Assembly: GCA_013203115.1 (NCBI GenBank)
Contig: JABMQW010000140.1
Location: 1 to 37,209, forward strand
Length of the DNA: 37,209 nt
DNA from: Fidelibacterota bacterium
Lineage (GTDB): Bacteria > Fidelibacterota > Marinisomatia > Marinisomatales > TCS56
Direction: 5' to 3'
Numbering within the stretch: the stretch's first letter is position 1; every line of letters begins with the position of its first letter. Positions 23,447-33,459 of the stretch are shown one piece after another. The notes below the pieces were generated by a model that saw only the letters and a program-made list of their open reading frames with translations, had not been told where the DNA came from and ran no database searches. The translations under genes and the position numbers were made by a program.

Positions 23447-25561
23447 ATGATAGATATTGAATTCTTGCAATCCTTTGACAATTGGGCTTGGGGATTACTT
23501 ATATTAGTTTTGGGAGCATTAATTTGGAGTTTCCGCGCGATCAGGACACATCGATTTATTCGTTTATTGTTTTTGTTGCGGCTGATATTGTTTTGTCTGT
23601 GTTTAATTCTTTTAAGTCAACCCCGCCTGACAATTCGCAAGGTAGAAAATTTTCCCCGCGAATGGAATTTGTATTTCGATAATTCACTTAGTATGAGCTA
23701 TCATCAAAATTTTTCGCTGGCTGCCTTGAACAACGGTATCCAGGAACTAACACGTGAATTCAATCAGAGAGATCTTCATCTCAATTCTTTTTATTTTACC
23801 CAAGATGTCCATAAATTATTCACTGATCCGATAATTACTGGTGACGGTGCCTCAACCGATTTAGGCAAGGTTCTGACACATATTGCTGACCTCGATCCTA
23901 ATTTCACTTCTGGTGCAATAATAGTTACCGATGGCCAGCCTACTCAGGGAATTAATCCTGTTCAGATTTCTGAAAATATAGCTGTGCCGATTTTCACGAT
24001 AGGGATTGGCGATACGACACCGATGGTGGATGTGGCTATCCATTCTCTGGATGTACCAACGGTAGCTATTATGGGCGATGATTTATCGCTATCAGTATTT
24101 ATTTCTTCGATCGGACCGCTTAACGATCGCATTAATGTAATTCTGATGGATGGCGATAAACCGATTGGTTCAAAGTTTATAACGGTGCATGGGCAGGGCT
24201 CGCAACAGAAGGTACTTTTTCGATTTAAGCCTAAGGTGCTGGGGATTAATAGTTTTGAAATAGTCACCTCTTCATTGGAAGATGAAATCAATGTGCTAAA
24301 TAACCGCCAGAAATTCCAGGTCACGGTTTTAAAGGATCGTTATCAGGTAGCACTTGTGACTGGGAGTCCAAATTTTAATACAACTTTATTAACTAATTTT
24401 TTAAAAAATAATCCACGGGTGAACCTGAATCATTTTCTCCAAGTTGGCAGTGAATTTCGTCCACCTTTGAAGCAATTTTGGGAAGCGAAGTATGACCTGA
24501 TCATATTTGACAATTTTCCTAACTCGCAACTCAGTTCTCAATGGCAGAGAATATTCGGCCGCAAGCTAATTGCGCATAAATCCTCGTTAGCCTGGATCAT
24601 CGGTCCTGATGTCAAAACCAGGTCGGGTCAGGGACTGTATCCTTTCTTCCATTTAAAACCGTTTGGAGATGTGCTTGACCCCAATAAAAGCTTTTCTTGG
24701 TATTTCACTGAAGAATTTATCGATTCTCCGTTGGGCCGGGGATTTACTGCCGCGGATATACCAAACGAAAATCGACTACCACCTTTGAAACCGGGATTAC
24801 AGGTTGAAAGTATCCACGATGATCTGAAAGCCTACGCCTATCTGTCCGGTCCGATTGAATTACCACTAATAATGTTCGGTGAAAAAGAAAATTTACGTAG
24901 CCTGATATGGACGGCGCCTGGTTTTTACGGAGTTCATTATAAATTAACCGGATCCAAATATAGTACTCTGGCAACTCAAATTTTGGATGGTATGCTGGGA
25001 TGGTTATTGCGTACCAGTAGTTCTGAAAAATTGTATTTTCGATTGAATAAAGAAGTTTATCAGCAGGGCGAAGCAATTATTATTACCGGAAATATGGCTG
25101 GTCAGCAGGTCATCAATCCATCAATAACCAAAGCATTCATTCGGATTTATAGAAATGAGGAACGAATGTCCTCAGGAGAATTAATCTACAACTTTGAACG
25201 GCAGCGCTGGGAAGGTGAATTATGGGCTTCGAAACCAGGACACTACCGGTTCGAAATAATAATTGATGATGGCACCGGCTCAAGTACCCAAAGTGGAGAT
25301 TTTTTGGTATCCGAAGGACAAATCGAATTGAATAAAGTTTTTGTCAACCGGAATTCCCTTAATCGTATTTCTGCCAATACAGGTGGTTTATATTTCCCCT
25401 GGAACCTGCGTTTCAATCTTTTTGACCATTTGAATAAGGAGGAAACGGTATCTACCAAACAGATAATTATTCGTTTTGGTGAGGAATATCTGGTACTGGC
25501 TAGCCTACTTTTACTTCTGGTAGTCGAATGGATAGTCCGGCGATTTTATGGTCTGCAATAA
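23447..25561 (+). CDS. vWA-domain membrane protein
   Basis: Two N-terminal TMs and one C-terminal TM; MIDAS-like DNSLS...STDLG...VTDGQPT. Confidence 0.8.
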   Translation: MIDIEFLQSFDNWAWGLLILVLGALIWSFRAIRTHRFIRLLFLLRLILFCLCLILLSQPRLTIRKVENFPREWNLYFDNSLSMSYHQNFSLAALNNGIQELTREFNQRDLHLNSFYFTQDVHKLFTDPIITGDGASTDLGKVLTHIADLDPNFTSGAIIVTDGQPTQGINPVQISENIAVPIFTIGIGDTTPMVDVAIHSLDVPTVAIMGDDLSLSVFISSIGPLNDRINVILMDGDKPIGSKFITVHGQGSQQKVLFRFKPKVLGINSFEIVTSSLEDEINVLNNRQKFQVTVLKDRYQVALVTGSPNFNTTLLTNFLKNNPRVNLNHFLQVGSEFRPPLKQFWEAKYDLIIFDNFPNSQLSSQWQRIFGRKLIAHKSSLAWIIGPDVKTRSGQGLYPFFHLKPFGDVLDPNKSFSWYFTEEFIDSPLGRGFTAADIPNENRLPPLKPGLQVESIHDDLKAYAYLSGPIELPLIMFGEKENLRSLIWTAPGFYGVHYKLTGSKYSTLATQILDGMLGWLLRTSSSEKLYFRLNKEVYQQGEAIIITGNMAGQQVINPSITKAFIRIYRNEERMSSGELIYNFERQRWEGELWASKPGHYRFEIIIDDGTGSSTQSGDFLVSEGQIELNKVFVNRNSLNRISANTGGLYFPWNLRFNLFDHLNKEETVSTKQIIIRFGEEYLVLASLLLLLVVEWIVRRFYGLQ

Positions 25562-25628: not shown

Positions 25629-26945
25629 GTGAAACATATTACAGTAATTGGAACGGGATATGTCGGATTGGTGAACGGAGCAGGGCTGGCCGATTTCGGG
25701 AATTTGGTCATCTGTTGTGATATCGATGCACGAAAGATTGAAATGCTCAATCATGGACAGATTCCGATTTATGAGCCCGGGTTGGAAGAAGTCGTTGAAC
25801 GGAACGTATCGACCGGCAGACTCTCTTTTACAACCGATCTTGATCAAGCGATCAGTCGATCGGAAGTAATTTACATTGCTGTTGGTACACCCCAGGGCGC
25901 CAATGGTGAAGCTGATATTTCTGCCGTTATGTCCGTCGCGGAACGGATTGGGAAGAATTTAACGGAATATAAGGTCATTTGTACCAAGAGTACTGTTCCA
26001 ATCGGTACCGGAAAAAAAATTATTGCCGCAATAAAAACAAAAGTGGATGTTACCGATTTTGATTATGTATCCAACCCGGAATTTTTACGGGAGGGGGCGG
26101 CCATTAAGGATTTTTTATGGCCCGACCGGGTTGTGATTGGTGCTGAATCCGAGCGTGCTTTCAAGATAATGCGGGATGTTTACCGTCCCCTTTTTATCAA
26201 CGAGACGCCAGTTATCCAGACTAATATTGTCACGGCTGAGACAATTAAATATGCCAGTAACGCCTTTTTGGCACTGAAAATCAGCTATATTAATGAAATT
26301 GCAAATTTATGCGAGGCGGTGGGAGGAGATATCCATCAGGTTGCCCGGGCAATGGGACTGGACGGACGTATCAGTTCAAAATTTCTGCATCCGGGACCTG
26401 GCTATGGCGGTTCTTGTTTCCCCAAGGATACCAATGCCTTGGTCACGATGGCTGAGACGGCAGGTGTTTGTATTTCGACCGTAAAAGCGGCTATTTCCGC
26501 CAATGATATTCAGAAACAAAGAATGGTAAATAAACTGCGGAAACTGGTGGGTGGGAGTTTTGACGGTAAACAGATTGCTGTGCTTGGCTTGAGTTTTAAA
26601 CCACAGACCGATGATGTACGGGATTCCGCCTCAATTGTGATGTTGGAAGCTTTGGAACGTGAAGGTGCTCTAATTAGGGCTTATGATCCGGTGGCGGTGG
26701 AATCGATGCGGAAAAAATTTCCGGAGATCGACTATTATGATAATTGGGAAACGGCCATAGCCGGCGCCGAGGCTGTAGTTATCATGACCGAGTGGAATGA
26801 ATTTCGGGGAATGGACCTGGAAGATCTGGGAAAGCGGTTGTCAAAAAAGATTATTCTTGATACCCGAAACATTTTCCGGCCAATGGAATTGAAACGGTTA
26901 GGATTTATTTTTGATAATGTCGGTAGATTAACCGAACTAATATGA
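25629..26945 (+). CDS. ugd: UDP-glucose/GDP-mannose-type 6-dehydrogenase
   Basis: ITVIGTGYVGLVNGAGLADFG, CTKSTVPIGTG, NPEFLREGAAIKDF, HPGPGYGGSCFPKDT, LGLSFKPQTDDVRDS; GTG start. Confidence 0.95.
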   Translation: MKHITVIGTGYVGLVNGAGLADFGNLVICCDIDARKIEMLNHGQIPIYEPGLEEVVERNVSTGRLSFTTDLDQAISRSEVIYIAVGTPQGANGEADISAVMSVAERIGKNLTEYKVICTKSTVPIGTGKKIIAAIKTKVDVTDFDYVSNPEFLREGAAIKDFLWPDRVVIGAESERAFKIMRDVYRPLFINETPVIQTNIVTAETIKYASNAFLALKISYINEIANLCEAVGGDIHQVARAMGLDGRISSKFLHPGPGYGGSCFPKDTNALVTMAETAGVCISTVKAAISANDIQKQRMVNKLRKLVGGSFDGKQIAVLGLSFKPQTDDVRDSASIVMLEALEREGALIRAYDPVAVESMRKKFPEIDYYDNWETAIAGAEAVVIMTEWNEFRGMDLEDLGKRLSKKIILDTRNIFRPMELKRLGFIFDNVGRLTELI

Positions 26946-27067: not shown

Positions 27068-28258
27068 ATGAGAATAATTTTTATTTCACTAATCCTTACC
27101 ATAACGTCCGTTATTATTCCCCAAACATTTGGACGAATCGGATTGGATCAAGAGCTTGCTTCACAACAGGAAATGCAAGCGCTGGAATCATTTGAAGAAA
27201 CATTTGCTCTGGAAAAAGCTATTGATCCTGCAAATTATATATTAGGGTCTGGGGACGAATTAGGATTGAATATTCTCACGAGTCAGAATATTACCTGGCC
27301 GTTAACCGTTACTCCAACAGGAGATTTATTTATTCCATCGGTCGGAATAATACACGTCGCCGGAATTTCACTGGAAGAGGCAACTGTTAAAGTACGTAAT
27401 TTTATTGTTACACAAGCCTACCCTAATTCAAAGGTTACACTTGCATTAATTAATTTACGCCAATTTAAGGTGCAGGTATCCGGTGCAGTAAACCAACCGG
27501 GGTTTGTGACAATTACACCGGTTGATCGACTAAGTGACGTTATAAAAAAAGTGGGCAATTTTCATCAATTTGCCCGGGAATACAATATTATTATTTACCG
27601 GAAAGAGCAGAAACCGATTATTATTGATTATTTTATGTATTGGCAAAATGGGGATCTGGCGCATAATCCTTCATTTCTCGAAGGTGACGTAATACAAGTA
27701 CCTTTCGGTAACATTGAAACGGAAGGTATTGTAATCCGTGGATCAGTTACCGGGCGTGGATATGATATCATTAAAAAGAATGAAACGCTGGAAAATTATA
27801 TTCGACGTAAGGCAAAATTTGCCACTAATGCTGATTTGGAATCAGTCACAATCACACGACGAATAAAAGATGATCTAGAGATTATTCACATTACACCAGA
27901 TAAATTTCATTCAACATTACTAGAACCAAGAGATGCAATTGATATTTTAGGAGAACGTGGTGTTACGGTTAATGGATATGTACAAGTCCCAGGTGGATAT
28001 TCCTTTTTACCGGGATTTTCAGTCTCGAATTATATCAGCATTGCCGGGGGGAATACACCCACTGGAGATGCTGATAAAGCTTTTGTGCGGCACCTGGACG
28101 GAAGCCTGGAAAAAGGGCAAATGGTATTAGTTAGACGGGGGGATGTCATTGTTGTCCCCCGAACCATAAAAAGTGTTATATTTGGTAATATAGGCATTTT
28201 ACAGATTGTTACGTCACTAACAACAATTTATTTAACTTACATTGCTGCAACAAAGTAA
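27068..28258 (+). CDS. polysaccharide export protein with SLBB domains (Wza-like)
   Basis: YILGSGDELGLNIL, ITWPLTVTPTGDLFIPSVGIIHVAGISLEEA, FKVQVSGAVNQPGFVTITPVDRLSDVI; C-terminal hydrophobic segment. Confidence 0.88.
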   Translation: MRIIFISLILTITSVIIPQTFGRIGLDQELASQQEMQALESFEETFALEKAIDPANYILGSGDELGLNILTSQNITWPLTVTPTGDLFIPSVGIIHVAGISLEEATVKVRNFIVTQAYPNSKVTLALINLRQFKVQVSGAVNQPGFVTITPVDRLSDVIKKVGNFHQFAREYNIIIYRKEQKPIIIDYFMYWQNGDLAHNPSFLEGDVIQVPFGNIETEGIVIRGSVTGRGYDIIKKNETLENYIRRKAKFATNADLESVTITRRIKDDLEIIHITPDKFHSTLLEPRDAIDILGERGVTVNGYVQVPGGYSFLPGFSVSNYISIAGGNTPTGDADKAFVRHLDGSLEKGQMVLVRRGDVIVVPRTIKSVIFGNIGILQIVTSLTTIYLTYIAATK

Positions 28259-28262
28259 AATA

Positions 28263-29609
28263 ATGGAATTAACACCTCACGAAGAAAAAGTATTAGCGTT
28301 AATCAAGCAATATCCTGAGATTGTGGATGATCACCTAGCTCGTGAAAAAATTGCCCAGAAACACGGTTATACAGAAAAAACTTTAAGAAACCGGATCGGG
28401 GATTTGAAGAAGTACGGGATGATAGATAATATTCACAAAAGTCCCGGTATTTCGCAAGCAGACGCCAACCTGATTGATATTTTTCAATTAATTTGGTTGT
28501 CCCGGTTGAAAATTATCAGGAATGTATTTGTAATAACTATTATATCAATTATAATTGCACTAATAATGCCCTTAACATATAAAGCCAGAGCGGTGATAAT
28601 GCCTCCATCGTTAGAAAGTAATTTGGGATTTTCCAGTGCCTTAACATCACTTCCATTCAGTGGATTATTGGGAGGTGGGGGTAACTCCGAGGCAATGACA
28701 TTTCTTGCTATTTTGAGAAGCAGGAAAACAATGCAAGATGTCGTTCAGAAATTTAAACTGATTGAGTATTATAATGTTGAGTATTTAGAAGAAGCAATAG
28801 CAGAACTAAAAAATAATTCCAATTTTGAGATTGAGGAAGAGGGGACAATTTCCATTTCTGTTACAGCTTCAACTTCATGGTTCCATCCGAAAGATGAAAT
28901 GGAGTTCTGCAAAAGACTGGTTGCTGATATATCAAATTATTTTGTTAAAAAACTTGATGAGGTTAATAACAATCTTAAGGGAGAAAAAGCAAAACTTCAT
29001 CGACAGTTAATAGAAAAACGATATAATATGAACATCCATGATCTTCAAGTTGCTGAAGACAATTTAAATTCATTTCAAAAAAAGTACAATACATTAGCCC
29101 TACCTGAACAAACATCAGCTGCCATCGAAATCGCTGCAACAATTAAAGCGCAGAAAATATTTGCAGAAGTGAAATATGAAGTATTAAAACACTCGTATTC
29201 AGTTGATCATCCTGATATTCAAAATGTGAAGAGGGAAATAAATCAACTGGAAATGCAACTCGAAAATATGGATAGAGGGATTGAGCGAGACTTTCTATTC
29301 CCAAAGTTTAAGGAGATACCCGATTTAGGTATTGAACTCGCGAGGTTTATACGAGCAGTAGAGATTCAGAATAAACTCTATATATTTCTTACTCAACAAT
29401 ATGAAGAAGCAAAGATACAAGAAGCAAAAGATACTCCAACTCTTCAAATATTAGATTTAGCAGTTATACCGGAAAAAAAATATAAACCTAATAGGGCAAA
29501 TATTGTTGTTGCATCCTTTTTTGCTAGTCTGATTTTCAGTATTATAATAATATTATCCTTTCAAAGTATTTCGAACTATCGTTTACTGCAAAATCAGAGA
29601 TTAAAATAG
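28263..29609 (+). CDS. Wzz-type polysaccharide copolymerase with N-terminal winged-HTH-like domain
   Basis: N-terminal ELTPHEEKVLALIKQYPEIVDDHLAREKIAQKHGYTEKTLRNRIGDLKKYGMI, then TM, Wzz-like region with coiled coil (YSVDHPDIQNVKREINQLE), PxxPxxPN-like juxtamembrane VIPEKKYKPNRAN, and TM2. Confidence 0.8.
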   Translation: MELTPHEEKVLALIKQYPEIVDDHLAREKIAQKHGYTEKTLRNRIGDLKKYGMIDNIHKSPGISQADANLIDIFQLIWLSRLKIIRNVFVITIISIIIALIMPLTYKARAVIMPPSLESNLGFSSALTSLPFSGLLGGGGNSEAMTFLAILRSRKTMQDVVQKFKLIEYYNVEYLEEAIAELKNNSNFEIEEEGTISISVTASTSWFHPKDEMEFCKRLVADISNYFVKKLDEVNNNLKGEKAKLHRQLIEKRYNMNIHDLQVAEDNLNSFQKKYNTLALPEQTSAAIEIAATIKAQKIFAEVKYEVLKHSYSVDHPDIQNVKREINQLEMQLENMDRGIERDFLFPKFKEIPDLGIELARFIRAVEIQNKLYIFLTQQYEEAKIQEAKDTPTLQILDLAVIPEKKYKPNRANIVVASFFASLIFSIIIILSFQSISNYRLLQNQRLK

Positions 29610-29683: not shown

Positions 29684-30928
29684 TTGAAGCACATTTATAA
29701 ATCCATAACGGTTTTAACCTTATTTTTAGTACTCCTAAGAGCGTTGGGATTTTTACGCACTATTGAAATCGCATATCTTTTTGGATCTCAAGAATCAACA
29801 GATGGAATATTTTTAGCACTTACAGTTATTTTATCGGTTTATGCAATTTCATTAAAAGCTTTCTCCGAAGGCATGATACCATATTTAGAAAAACATTATA
29901 CGAGGAATGATTTTATATCGAGCCTTTTATGGGTTATGTGTGTCGCATTTTTTCTTAATTTAATTCTTTTTATATATGCAAATGAGATAACTCAAATAAT
30001 TGGTCCGGGCTTGGGAGAACTTGGTACGCAAGTGACATCCAAATCTTTGAGAATCTTTTCATTTATGTCTTACCCAATGTTGGGTAATGCTCTTTTTTCA
30101 GCTTATTTATACTATTCAAAAAACTATAATATAGTAGATATTGGCGACATTATTCGAAATATTATTTGTGTAGTGATAATCTACTTATGGAGTAACGATG
30201 TCATTGGAGTGGTATATGCTTGGTTTATAGGAAGTTGGATTAGTTCAATATATATTGTTTATATTTTCATTAGAAGAGTTTTCAAGAATCTTGGTAAAAT
30301 CAATCATTCTGATATACCCCTTAAAACTGGTATATTTTTTTCTACAGCAATAAATTTAATAATTTATATCGCAGTAATTATTGATAAGTACTTTCTATCA
30401 TTTAGTACGGAGGGAACAATTTCCAATTTTACTTATGGAAATGCACTTAGAGCGATAATATTAACGACAATAGTTGCAGCTTCCAGAAAGATTTTTCTTG
30501 TAGAATTTACCAATCATGGTTTCGGATATAAAAAATCTTTACTTAATACATTTATATTGTTATCGGTTTGTTCATTTTCCCTTTATATTTTTTCAATTCC
30601 TTTGACAAAACTCTTTTTTCTTAGAGGAGAAATTTCACCCACTGACGTCCAGGTAATTGCTACCGTATTACAGTTTGTTGCTATTAGTCTTCCATTTTAT
30701 TCCCTATTTGAAATTTTATCACAAAAATTATATTCACAGCAGAAGTATTCCATTGTGCTTAAAGGAGCAGTAATACTAGTTATCTTGAAAACTATTATAT
30801 GTTATTTAACATTTGAAAACTTTGGGCTTTTTTCGGTCTTAGGGTCAAAATTATTTTTTGAAATTGGCCTTTTTATGGTTGTATTTATTTATCTTTGGAA
30901 GCGTCAATTCAAGACTGAAAAATCATGA
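29684..30928 (+). CDS. MurJ/Wzx-like oligosaccharide flippase
   Basis: Polytopic 414 aa protein; LRALGFLRTIEIAYLFGSQESTDGIFLALTV is MviN/MurJ-like; TTG start. Confidence 0.82.
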   Translation: MKHIYKSITVLTLFLVLLRALGFLRTIEIAYLFGSQESTDGIFLALTVILSVYAISLKAFSEGMIPYLEKHYTRNDFISSLLWVMCVAFFLNLILFIYANEITQIIGPGLGELGTQVTSKSLRIFSFMSYPMLGNALFSAYLYYSKNYNIVDIGDIIRNIICVVIIYLWSNDVIGVVYAWFIGSWISSIYIVYIFIRRVFKNLGKINHSDIPLKTGIFFSTAINLIIYIAVIIDKYFLSFSTEGTISNFTYGNALRAIILTTIVAASRKIFLVEFTNHGFGYKKSLLNTFILLSVCSFSLYIFSIPLTKLFFLRGEISPTDVQVIATVLQFVAISLPFYSLFEILSQKLYSQQKYSIVLKGAVILVILKTIICYLTFENFGLFSVLGSKLFFEIGLFMVVFIYLWKRQFKTEKS

Positions 30929-32307
30929 GAAACAGTATTCTATTTAGTGCGCCATTCTTTGTCTTAATACTTGGTATCCTTTTAAATTCCGAAACTTTAA
31001 TATTCTTGTTCTACACAATATTTCCAATTGTAATAACGATATTAGTTTTTGGAATAGTTAAAGGCGAAGTCCTCGACATTCGTTTTCTATTTATTTCCTT
31101 TTTTGCCTTGTATATCTCATTGCCTGCCTTTTTCACGGTTATATTTGGATCTGGTGTATTACTGGATCGTTTCAGTGAAGCTGTTTTCGGCGCTACTGCG
31201 AAAGACCTGCATTTCTCATTTATTTTACACAATATTGCAATCATCTTTTTATTTGGGTCTGCTTTTGGGTTGTATCTTTTCACAGGAATTGAAGATAGGA
31301 AAGAGGTAAAACCCAGCTTATCATCAGACGCTTTGATATTATTTAATGGGTTATATTTATGTATCTTATTATATATCTTTTTTATTGTTATTGATATTAC
31401 TTCAATATTCTCATGGGATTATATAAAATACCACAAATTTATAGCAGGAAAGGGTTTATTCTTATTTTGGTTGAATACGTTGCCTTTTATTATTGGTATT
31501 AATTTGCTTATGCAACAAACCAAATGGCAAAAAATTTGTTGGGTATTAATTTATCTGATATTGGCAATAATTTTAGTAATTGCCACTGGAAAAAGATCAT
31601 ATATTTTTCCAAGCATGGTGGGTATATCGATGTATTTGCTCCACTTAAAAAAAATTCACTGGTTGAAAATTACCATAGTGATAATAGTCATTTATGGAAC
31701 AATGCATGCCTACGGTTTTATAAGAGCGTTTAAGGGGGAAACGGATTTATTAAACCAATGGCAGAAAGGATGGACCTTTGTTGTTGAACATAAGGAGTTT
31801 TTAATCAATGATGAATTTTCGGCATCTGTTATCAATTCCACAGGAGTAATCAATCTGCTAAAAAAGGGTATTTGGGATTATCAATATGGTAGAACGGTTA
31901 TTGATATTTTTCCCAGTCTTATTCCTAAAGTCTTTTATGCTGACCGTCAAGAGGGAATTGCGCTACTGTTTGCTAAGAAAGCAAGTATTGGACGATTTCG
32001 AGCTGGAGGAGCTTTTGGATTTTCAATAATTGGTGATAGCTATCTTAATTTTGGAATACTGGGAGTTGTTATATTTTTTATATTATTTGGATTTTTATTA
32101 CAAAAATTGGCATTAGATCCATATCTATTCCAAAATATCTTTGTTTTTGGTATGCTCCCTACTATTATTTTTTTTAGTCGAACAAGTCTATCAGGTACTA
32201 TGAAATCTATTCTTATAAATCCCGCGATTCCTTTTATTCTTTTCGTTTGTTTTTATTACTTTACCTATAAATTTATTACTGTAAAAAAAACCTTACACGA
32301 GGTATAA
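30925..32307 (+). CDS. O-antigen/oligosaccharide repeat-unit polymerase (Wzy-like)
   Basis: 460 aa polytopic protein in a polysaccharide locus; large loop and IATGKRSYIFPSMVGI; overlaps the flippase end. Confidence 0.68.
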   Translation: MRNSILFSAPFFVLILGILLNSETLIFLFYTIFPIVITILVFGIVKGEVLDIRFLFISFFALYISLPAFFTVIFGSGVLLDRFSEAVFGATAKDLHFSFILHNIAIIFLFGSAFGLYLFTGIEDRKEVKPSLSSDALILFNGLYLCILLYIFFIVIDITSIFSWDYIKYHKFIAGKGLFLFWLNTLPFIIGINLLMQQTKWQKICWVLIYLILAIILVIATGKRSYIFPSMVGISMYLLHLKKIHWLKITIVIIVIYGTMHAYGFIRAFKGETDLLNQWQKGWTFVVEHKEFLINDEFSASVINSTGVINLLKKGIWDYQYGRTVIDIFPSLIPKVFYADRQEGIALLFAKKASIGRFRAGGAFGFSIIGDSYLNFGILGVVIFFILFGFLLQKLALDPYLFQNIFVFGMLPTIIFFSRTSLSGTMKSILINPAIPFILFVCFYYFTYKFITVKKTLHEV

Positions 32308-32373: not shown

Positions 32374-33459
32374 CTGAAGGTCGTAAATATTGGAAGATGG
32401 CCCCCGCCATATGGTGGAGTCTCATCACATATCAACAGATTACATGCGTATCTGATGAAAAACGGAATTAACAGTATCGTGATTGACCAAAATACAAGTA
32501 ATCACTGTGCTAAGAGTTTGGATCAACGTATTATTTATCTTAAAGGTAATAGATCTCAGAAATATATCCAGTTACTTAACTTGTTATCTAGTAGTAATGC
32601 AGATGTGTGTCATTTTCACACATCCCTATTTAAAATATTCATTAAAGGCGGTTTTTTTCTGTTATTCAATCTTATAAATGTGCAAACTGTTCTCACAATT
32701 CACTCTGGTCATTTTGTAAAACAATATGAGAAAAAAAGTCTCATTTGGCAAATAGCTGTGAAAAAAATGATAAACTCATTTAATCACGTCATTGCTCTTA
32801 ATAAAGAACAACTGGATTTTTATCTAAACAGACTGCAAAGACAGCAAACAAACGTAACATTAATCCCACCATTCATTTTCCCATCTGATTTTAATAAGTC
32901 AGCTATTAAATCGATGACAAAAATAAATTCTTTTAAAGCTAACGTTGATATGACAATATTAGTCAGCGGCCGTATTTTTTTGTTGTATGGTTTTGATTTA
33001 ATAATTCAAGCAGCCAATAAAGTAATGTGTATGAGGAATATTAAAATTGGACTTATATTTATTTTTTATACTGCAGAGGATAAAAAATATAGAATAAAAT
33101 TAATGAAAAAAATTAGTAATTATGAGTACCATCTCGTTCTTCGTGATTTGTCCTCCGAACAGTTTTTATCGGTTATGAAGAATTGTAATATTTATGTCAG
33201 ACCAACTTATTATGATGGGAATAGTGTATCAACAATGGAAGCTATTGCATTAAACATCCCGGTGATTGCTAGCGATATCGACGGTCGTCCGAAAGGAGCA
33301 ATATTATTTAAAACTGGAGATGTACCAGATCTTGTTACTAAGTTGTGTTACTGTATTGATAATTATAGTTTAGTAAAAAATAATCTAAGACATTATAAGT
33401 TAGCGGATAATGGAGCAAAAATGTTGACTTTGTATCAAAAGATTGCGAATCACAATTAG
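32374..33459 (+). CDS. glycosyltransferase family 4
   Basis: Upstream in-frame extension from CTG gives LKVVNIGRWPPPYGGVSSHINRLHAYLMKNG, a GT4 N-terminus; C-terminal VRPTYYDGNSVSTMEAIALNIPVIASDIDGRP. Confidence 0.85.
   Translation: MKVVNIGRWPPPYGGVSSHINRLHAYLMKNGINSIVIDQNTSNHCAKSLDQRIIYLKGNRSQKYIQLLNLLSSSNADVCHFHTSLFKIFIKGGFFLLFNLINVQTVLTIHSGHFVKQYEKKSLIWQIAVKKMINSFNHVIALNKEQLDFYLNRLQRQQTNVTLIPPFIFPSDFNKSAIKSMTKINSFKANVDMTILVSGRIFLLYGFDLIIQAANKVMCMRNIKIGLIFIFYTAEDKKYRIKLMKKISNYEYHLVLRDLSSEQFLSVMKNCNIYVRPTYYDGNSVSTMEAIALNIPVIASDIDGRPKGAILFKTGDVPDLVTKLCYCIDNYSLVKNNLRHYKLADNGAKMLTLYQKIANHN

Follow-up and report, generated by a model that had tools for sequence, protein, structure and literature searches.

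Wzz is a membrane protein that helps to set the chain length of surface sugars. Polysaccharide co-polymerases of the Wzz/Wzc type (PCP-1/PCP-2) have two transmembrane (TM) helices, an alpha0-like helix, a periplasmic Wzz domain, a GNVR region and the PCP fold, and their genes are placed beside wza, wzx and wzy. The BY-kinase co-polymerases (PCP-2a, Wzc) carry a P-loop tyrosine kinase in addition. In flagella and secretion systems the status of the export machine is coupled to gene expression; to our knowledge, no such coupling is known through a Wzz co-polymerase. Regulators of the ToxR, CadC and TcpP class combine a DNA-binding-type domain and a TM helix on one chain with a cytoplasmic N-terminus. 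A survey of transmembrane regulators defines them by the presence of a DNA-binding domain and a TM segment, and Wzz is not named in its main text (PMC10269533).

In this study, we analysed a gene of a Fidelibacterota bacterium that joins a helix-turn-helix (HTH) domain to a Wzz co-polymerase. It lies in a window of 37,209 nucleotides, by which we mean the whole stretch of DNA analysed. The gene, the parts of its product and the neighbouring genes are as follows:

25629..26945, + strand: ugd, UDP-glucose/GDP-mannose dehydrogenase family (domain match, synteny)
27068..28258, + strand: wza-type outer-membrane export protein (Poly_export, SLBB; Pfam), adjoining the fusion 5' in nearly all relatives
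28263..29609, + strand: wHTH-Wzz fusion gene, 448 aa, ATG start
28263..28430, + strand: cytoplasmic HTH domain, residues 1-56, with recognition helix 38-51 = EKTLRNRIGDLKKY (alignments, AlphaFold, Foldseek, profile scans)
28431..28469, + strand: variable disordered linker, residues 57-69 (low pLDDT, low pairwise identity)
28470..28565, + strand: alpha0-like helix and TM1, residues 70-101 (TM survey of loci, full-length model)
28566..29492, + strand: periplasmic Wzz/PCP domain with long coiled coil, residues 102-410 (Pfam Wzz; Foldseek)
29343..29555, + strand: GNVR region, residues 361-431 (Pfam PF13807)
29493..29606, + strand: TM2 and short cytoplasmic tail, kinase domain absent (Pfam, full-length model)
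29684..30928, + strand: wzx, MurJ/MOP-type flippase (Pfam)
30925..32307, + strand: Wzy family, O-antigen polymerase (Pfam)
32455..33459, + strand: glycosyltransferase group 1 (domain match)

The open frame runs uninterrupted from 28242 to 29609, with its true start at the ATG at 28263, 4 nt past the wza stop (28258). Pfam matches Wzz at residues 69-163 (E 9.5e-8) and GNVR at residues 361-431 (E 2.4e-9), both above cut-off, and finds no kinase domain after TM2. The full-length AlphaFold model places in order the HTH, a disordered linker (residues 56-68, pLDDT <50), alpha0/TM1 (residues 70-101), the Wzz periplasmic fold and TM2; in Foldseek it resembles Wzc, WzzE, WzzB and KpsE. The two TM helices enclose a periplasmic domain of alpha/beta and coiled-coil make-up. 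By sequence and predicted fold, the fusion protein is a polysaccharide co-polymerase. WzzB also has an alpha0 helix before TM1 (PMC7809406), as in our model. Compared with Wzz and Wzc, the fusion adds an N-terminal HTH of about 56 aa and lacks the C-terminal BY-kinase; as the P-loop tyrosine kinase is missing, it is not a member of PCP-2a. PCP topology places the HTH in the cytoplasm. The original prediction of one frame starting at 28263 and joining a cytoplasmic N-terminal HTH, TM1, a Wzz periplasmic region and TM2, with no BY-kinase P-loop behind them, is borne out by the uninterrupted frame, Pfam, AlphaFold, PCP topology and the same start in homologues. The genome itself (a 2.64 Mb draft, 88% complete) contains a single match to the fusion protein, and a BY-kinase search of this draft (TIGR01007) gave none above cut-off. 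At 23447-25561 the window encodes a 704-aa protein without a Pfam match; in many relatives a protein of similar size is encoded immediately 5' of ugd, and that of L062 is VWA-like at E 0.005.

Residues 1-76 of the window protein alone give winged-HTH matches below threshold in Pfam (E 0.01-0.1), and the case for the HTH therefore rests on comparison among relatives. Across 57 family members, HTH_24 is matched in 48 (best E 7e-7), CggR_N in 44, HTH_11 in 41 and HTH_AsnC-type models at E <= 0.05 in 17, while the recognition helix has a charge of +3 to +4 in 57/57. AlphaFold predicts helices at residues 5-16, 18-21, 24-33 and 38-51 with a core pLDDT above 90, and no wing strands. The top solved structures in Foldseek are Lrp/AsnC proteins (probability 0.96-0.99, rmsd about 2 A), but for this short domain the E-values are no better than 0.24-0.48. 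A profile of the N-terminal domain finds Csa3 at E 2e-5 among the sequences of solved structures, CARF/CasR models also match the domain, and the nearest genome matches outside the family are NtrC-Fis, Crp and Lrp HTHs. In its predicted fold the domain is an Lrp/AsnC-like trihelical HTH with a minimal wing at most. The winged-HTH head originally proposed thus stands as an HTH of DNA-binding type whose basic recognition helix is conserved, as opposed to a non-DNA-binding helical cap, but the wing itself is not predicted. The trihelical fold and the recognition-helix pattern resemble those of Lrp/AsnC and Csa3/CasR domains; unlike these, the fusion protein is membrane anchored and has neither a CARF domain nor, by Pfam, a RAM/Lrp ligand domain.

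The likeness to ToxR/CadC-type regulators, which had also been proposed, is retained as a functional analogy, not as family membership. Trans_reg_C (OmpR/ToxR-type) has no match up to E = 1 in the window protein and is absent among the families listed for the 57-member scan. The fusion protein falls under the survey's definition of a transmembrane regulator (PMC10269533) by composition only. It differs from ToxR, CadC and TcpP in that its HTH is Lrp/Csa3-like, not OmpR-type, and in that the output domain sits on an apparently working subunit of an export machine, not on a dedicated sensor.

Within the window's order (Marinimicrobia/Fidelibacterota), 61 genomes contain the fusion, at about one copy each. 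Matches to the fusion protein occur in 58 of 101 related genomes, most of the best loci spanning from residue 1-3 to the end. The N-domain profile alone has matches in 64 of 245 genomes of the phylum, namely the 61 of the same order, one elsewhere (G213) and two weak NtrC matches. In almost all genomes the domain is present as a single copy heading a frame of 400-500 aa; the short frames inspected (L143-L145) reach contig ends. Of the complete loci among 56 species-level loci, nearly all have TM1 around residue 80-110 and TM2 close to the end; the exceptions are the archaeal ones and L081. The start M-x-L-T-x-H-E recurs right after the wza stop; where upstream DNA sufficed, the distance is -4 to +64 nt in nearly all loci. 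The HTH has a mean pairwise identity of 56%, compared with about 18% for the linker (residues 57-80) and 37% for the periplasmic part, and is thus the best-conserved part of the protein. EKTLRNR is nearly invariant; the 56 loci were gathered with the peptide pattern [TS]EKTLRNR[IL] and this constancy is partly by selection, but a first alignment from a protein search without the pattern gave the same conservation with one L-to-M change. The dN/dS of the HTH is roughly 0.02-0.17 in near pairs with enough divergence. By these sequence comparisons the HTH domain is under purifying selection.

Several candidates were set aside. Weak partial profile matches in G195, G200, G099 and G396 do not represent fusions but NtrC-Fis, Crp and Lrp proteins. 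L090 and L100, MAGs labelled as Alphaproteobacteria and Legionellales, have matches on contigs that look like misbinned Marinimicrobia DNA. An apparent split gene at L081:6001-7332, in which pieces of flippase and Wzz come inverted after the HTH at the contig end of a single-cell genome, is probably an amplification chimera.

In family f13, wza is followed 11 nt on by a Wzz without HTH. In a tree of the Wzz core the HTH-less rows are nested and force at least two changes; HTH-bearing proteins stand on both sides of the deepest split, as read by midpoint, which suggests that the HTH is ancestral and the HTH-less rows are losses. If so, the tree suggests that the HTH was lost at least twice with wza-wzz intact. 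Wzz then has no strict need for the HTH, which is, on this reading of the tree, an accessory function. In the related genomes L103 and L105 the HTH is similar (dN 0.14) and the Wzz part highly divergent (dN 0.79), suggesting that the Wzz part was exchanged while the HTH was kept. Moreover, three marine euryarchaea encode a stand-alone protein of 101 aa with this HTH and a C-terminal TM helix (L085:5791-6096, L096:5771-6076, L101:5359-5664). These proteins share about 50-60% HTH identity and a membrane anchor at similar distance with the fusion; they differ in lacking Wzz, in TM sequence and in their unrelated neighbourhood of archaeal genes (eIF-6, MeaB, respiratory genes such as cytochrome b). 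Only three of 195 genomes sampled from that archaeal order contain them, which makes transfer between lineages likely.

A single family, f7, offers a candidate operator. All f7 loci that have sufficient upstream DNA contain the palindrome GCCCGGGC at the 5' end of wza, about 0.95-2.4 kb ahead of the HTH start (L066, L071-L075, L077, L081, L082, L084, L086-L088, L091, L093-L095, L099, L102, L107, L108, L111, L112, L115). The palindrome is often extended as GGGC-N3/4-GCCCGGGC, and in the remainder of these genomes it is rare. In loci with a divergent serS it is located about 160 bp upstream of wza; L077 and L093 have it in the 5' leader, and L066, L071, L073, L074 and L075 within the signal-peptide codons GCC-CGG-GC. 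GCC accounts for 9.3% of Ala codons there and CGG for 3.8% of Arg codons, and the retention of these rare codons argues for constraint on the DNA itself; the five loci are related, however. Twelve f7 genomes have few TGCCCGGGC matches each, with one at wza in 12/12. Other sites of the GCCCGGGC type that were examined lie mostly inside unrelated reading frames; the only other intergenic site seen is TGCCCGGGCA in L121 and L122, upstream of a homocitrate/isopropylmalate-synthase-like gene. Some f7 copies (those of L088 and L091) are part of a longer perfect palindrome, a form to be expected if a dimeric protein binds the DNA. Inspection of the f7 locus L084 revealed no further regulator gene. 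A conserved leader, AGGAATACTATCGATATAAACTGCGCCCAGTTT...AAAGGCAA, is present upstream of wza in L084, L099, L107, L112 and other serS-divergent loci, and contains no Rfam element at the gathering threshold.

Families with the same recognition helix, that of the window included, are without GCCCGGGC at wza, and L075, which belongs to the f7 lineage but whose Wzz groups with family f9 (L008) in the Wzz-core tree, keeps it. Another f7 factor may thus read GCCCGGGC, which we regard as a candidate operator in f7 that follows host lineage, not the HTH. Upstream of ugd, wza and wzx in the window and its sister genome, the search yielded neither an operator nor a conserved inverted repeat, and comparison of the ugd and wza upstream regions in the window lineage gave no shared operator. 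The one GCCCGGGC site in the window lies inside ugd codons and is not above chance; the match in L061 is likewise inside ugd.

We propose, with a probability of about 0.5, that the fusion protein is a membrane-tethered one-component regulator on a Wzz scaffold, for which we infer DNA binding, target and signal. By analogy with the ring and clustering model of E. coli WzzB (PMC7809406), the scaffold would form an inner-membrane ring beside Wzy and Wza and cluster several HTH heads beneath the membrane. How the heads bind a specific DNA target, most plausibly the promoters of the polysaccharide locus, could then depend on whether the export machine is assembled or occupied. The narrower version, in which the heads read a specific operator within the locus (for one family, GCCCGGGC at wza) and pass assembly or chain status directly to transcription, is put forward tentatively and with less confidence. 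The regulator reading draws on the HTH homology, the conserved basic recognition helix, purifying selection, the wza linkage and the PCP fold, on the HTH-only membrane-anchored archaeal proteins and the nested HTH losses, and on the f7 palindrome at wza, held against codon bias in signal-peptide codons of five loci. It is weakened by the failure to find an operator in the window lineage and by the lack of the f7 palindrome in same-helix families.

HTH folds also mediate protein-protein contacts, which counts against a regulator. The fold might have been recruited as an assembly module that serves as a hub of the Wzz ring or docks a glycosyltransferase, Wzy or some other partner in the cytoplasm, with loss of DNA binding. 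We consider this the main rival, though rather unlikely. It would agree with the negative operator search in the window lineage and with a genome that has no above-cut-off BY-kinase to supply a cytoplasmic function, and the N-terminus of WzzB already forms a cytoplasmic hub (PMC7809406). However, conservation is highest at polar and basic positions of the recognition helix, as is typical of residues that contact DNA, the domain occurs apart from Wzz in archaea, and it appears to have been lost at least twice while wza-wzz was kept. The basic helix on a multimeric scaffold would also suit an HTH that binds DNA non-specifically or at few sites and anchors chromosome or locus at the membrane (for positioning or a transertion-like coupling) without regulating transcription; the constancy of single recognition residues suggests sequence-specific contact instead and makes tethering improbable. 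That the fusion is an artefact, caused by a misplaced start codon, a chimeric assembly or a chance resemblance to an HTH, could be argued from the sub-threshold scores of the single sequence, but this is refuted by the comparative data and hardly deserves consideration: fusion, start and synteny are common to more than 60 genomes, the HTH is under purifying selection, and close and distant homologues with the same start rule out a start-site or frame artefact.

The original prediction named no characterised protein of this architecture, and our search of open-access papers likewise found no HTH-on-Wzz protein described. The HTH and Wzz halves are each known; we know of no earlier report of their combination. 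The natural HTH-less relatives and the HTH-only archaeal proteins represent ready-made controls. If the HTH binds DNA, the fusion would connect the assembly of surface polysaccharide with transcription through one protein, and, if true, this link would extend over an order of uncultured bacteria that are abundant and mostly marine.
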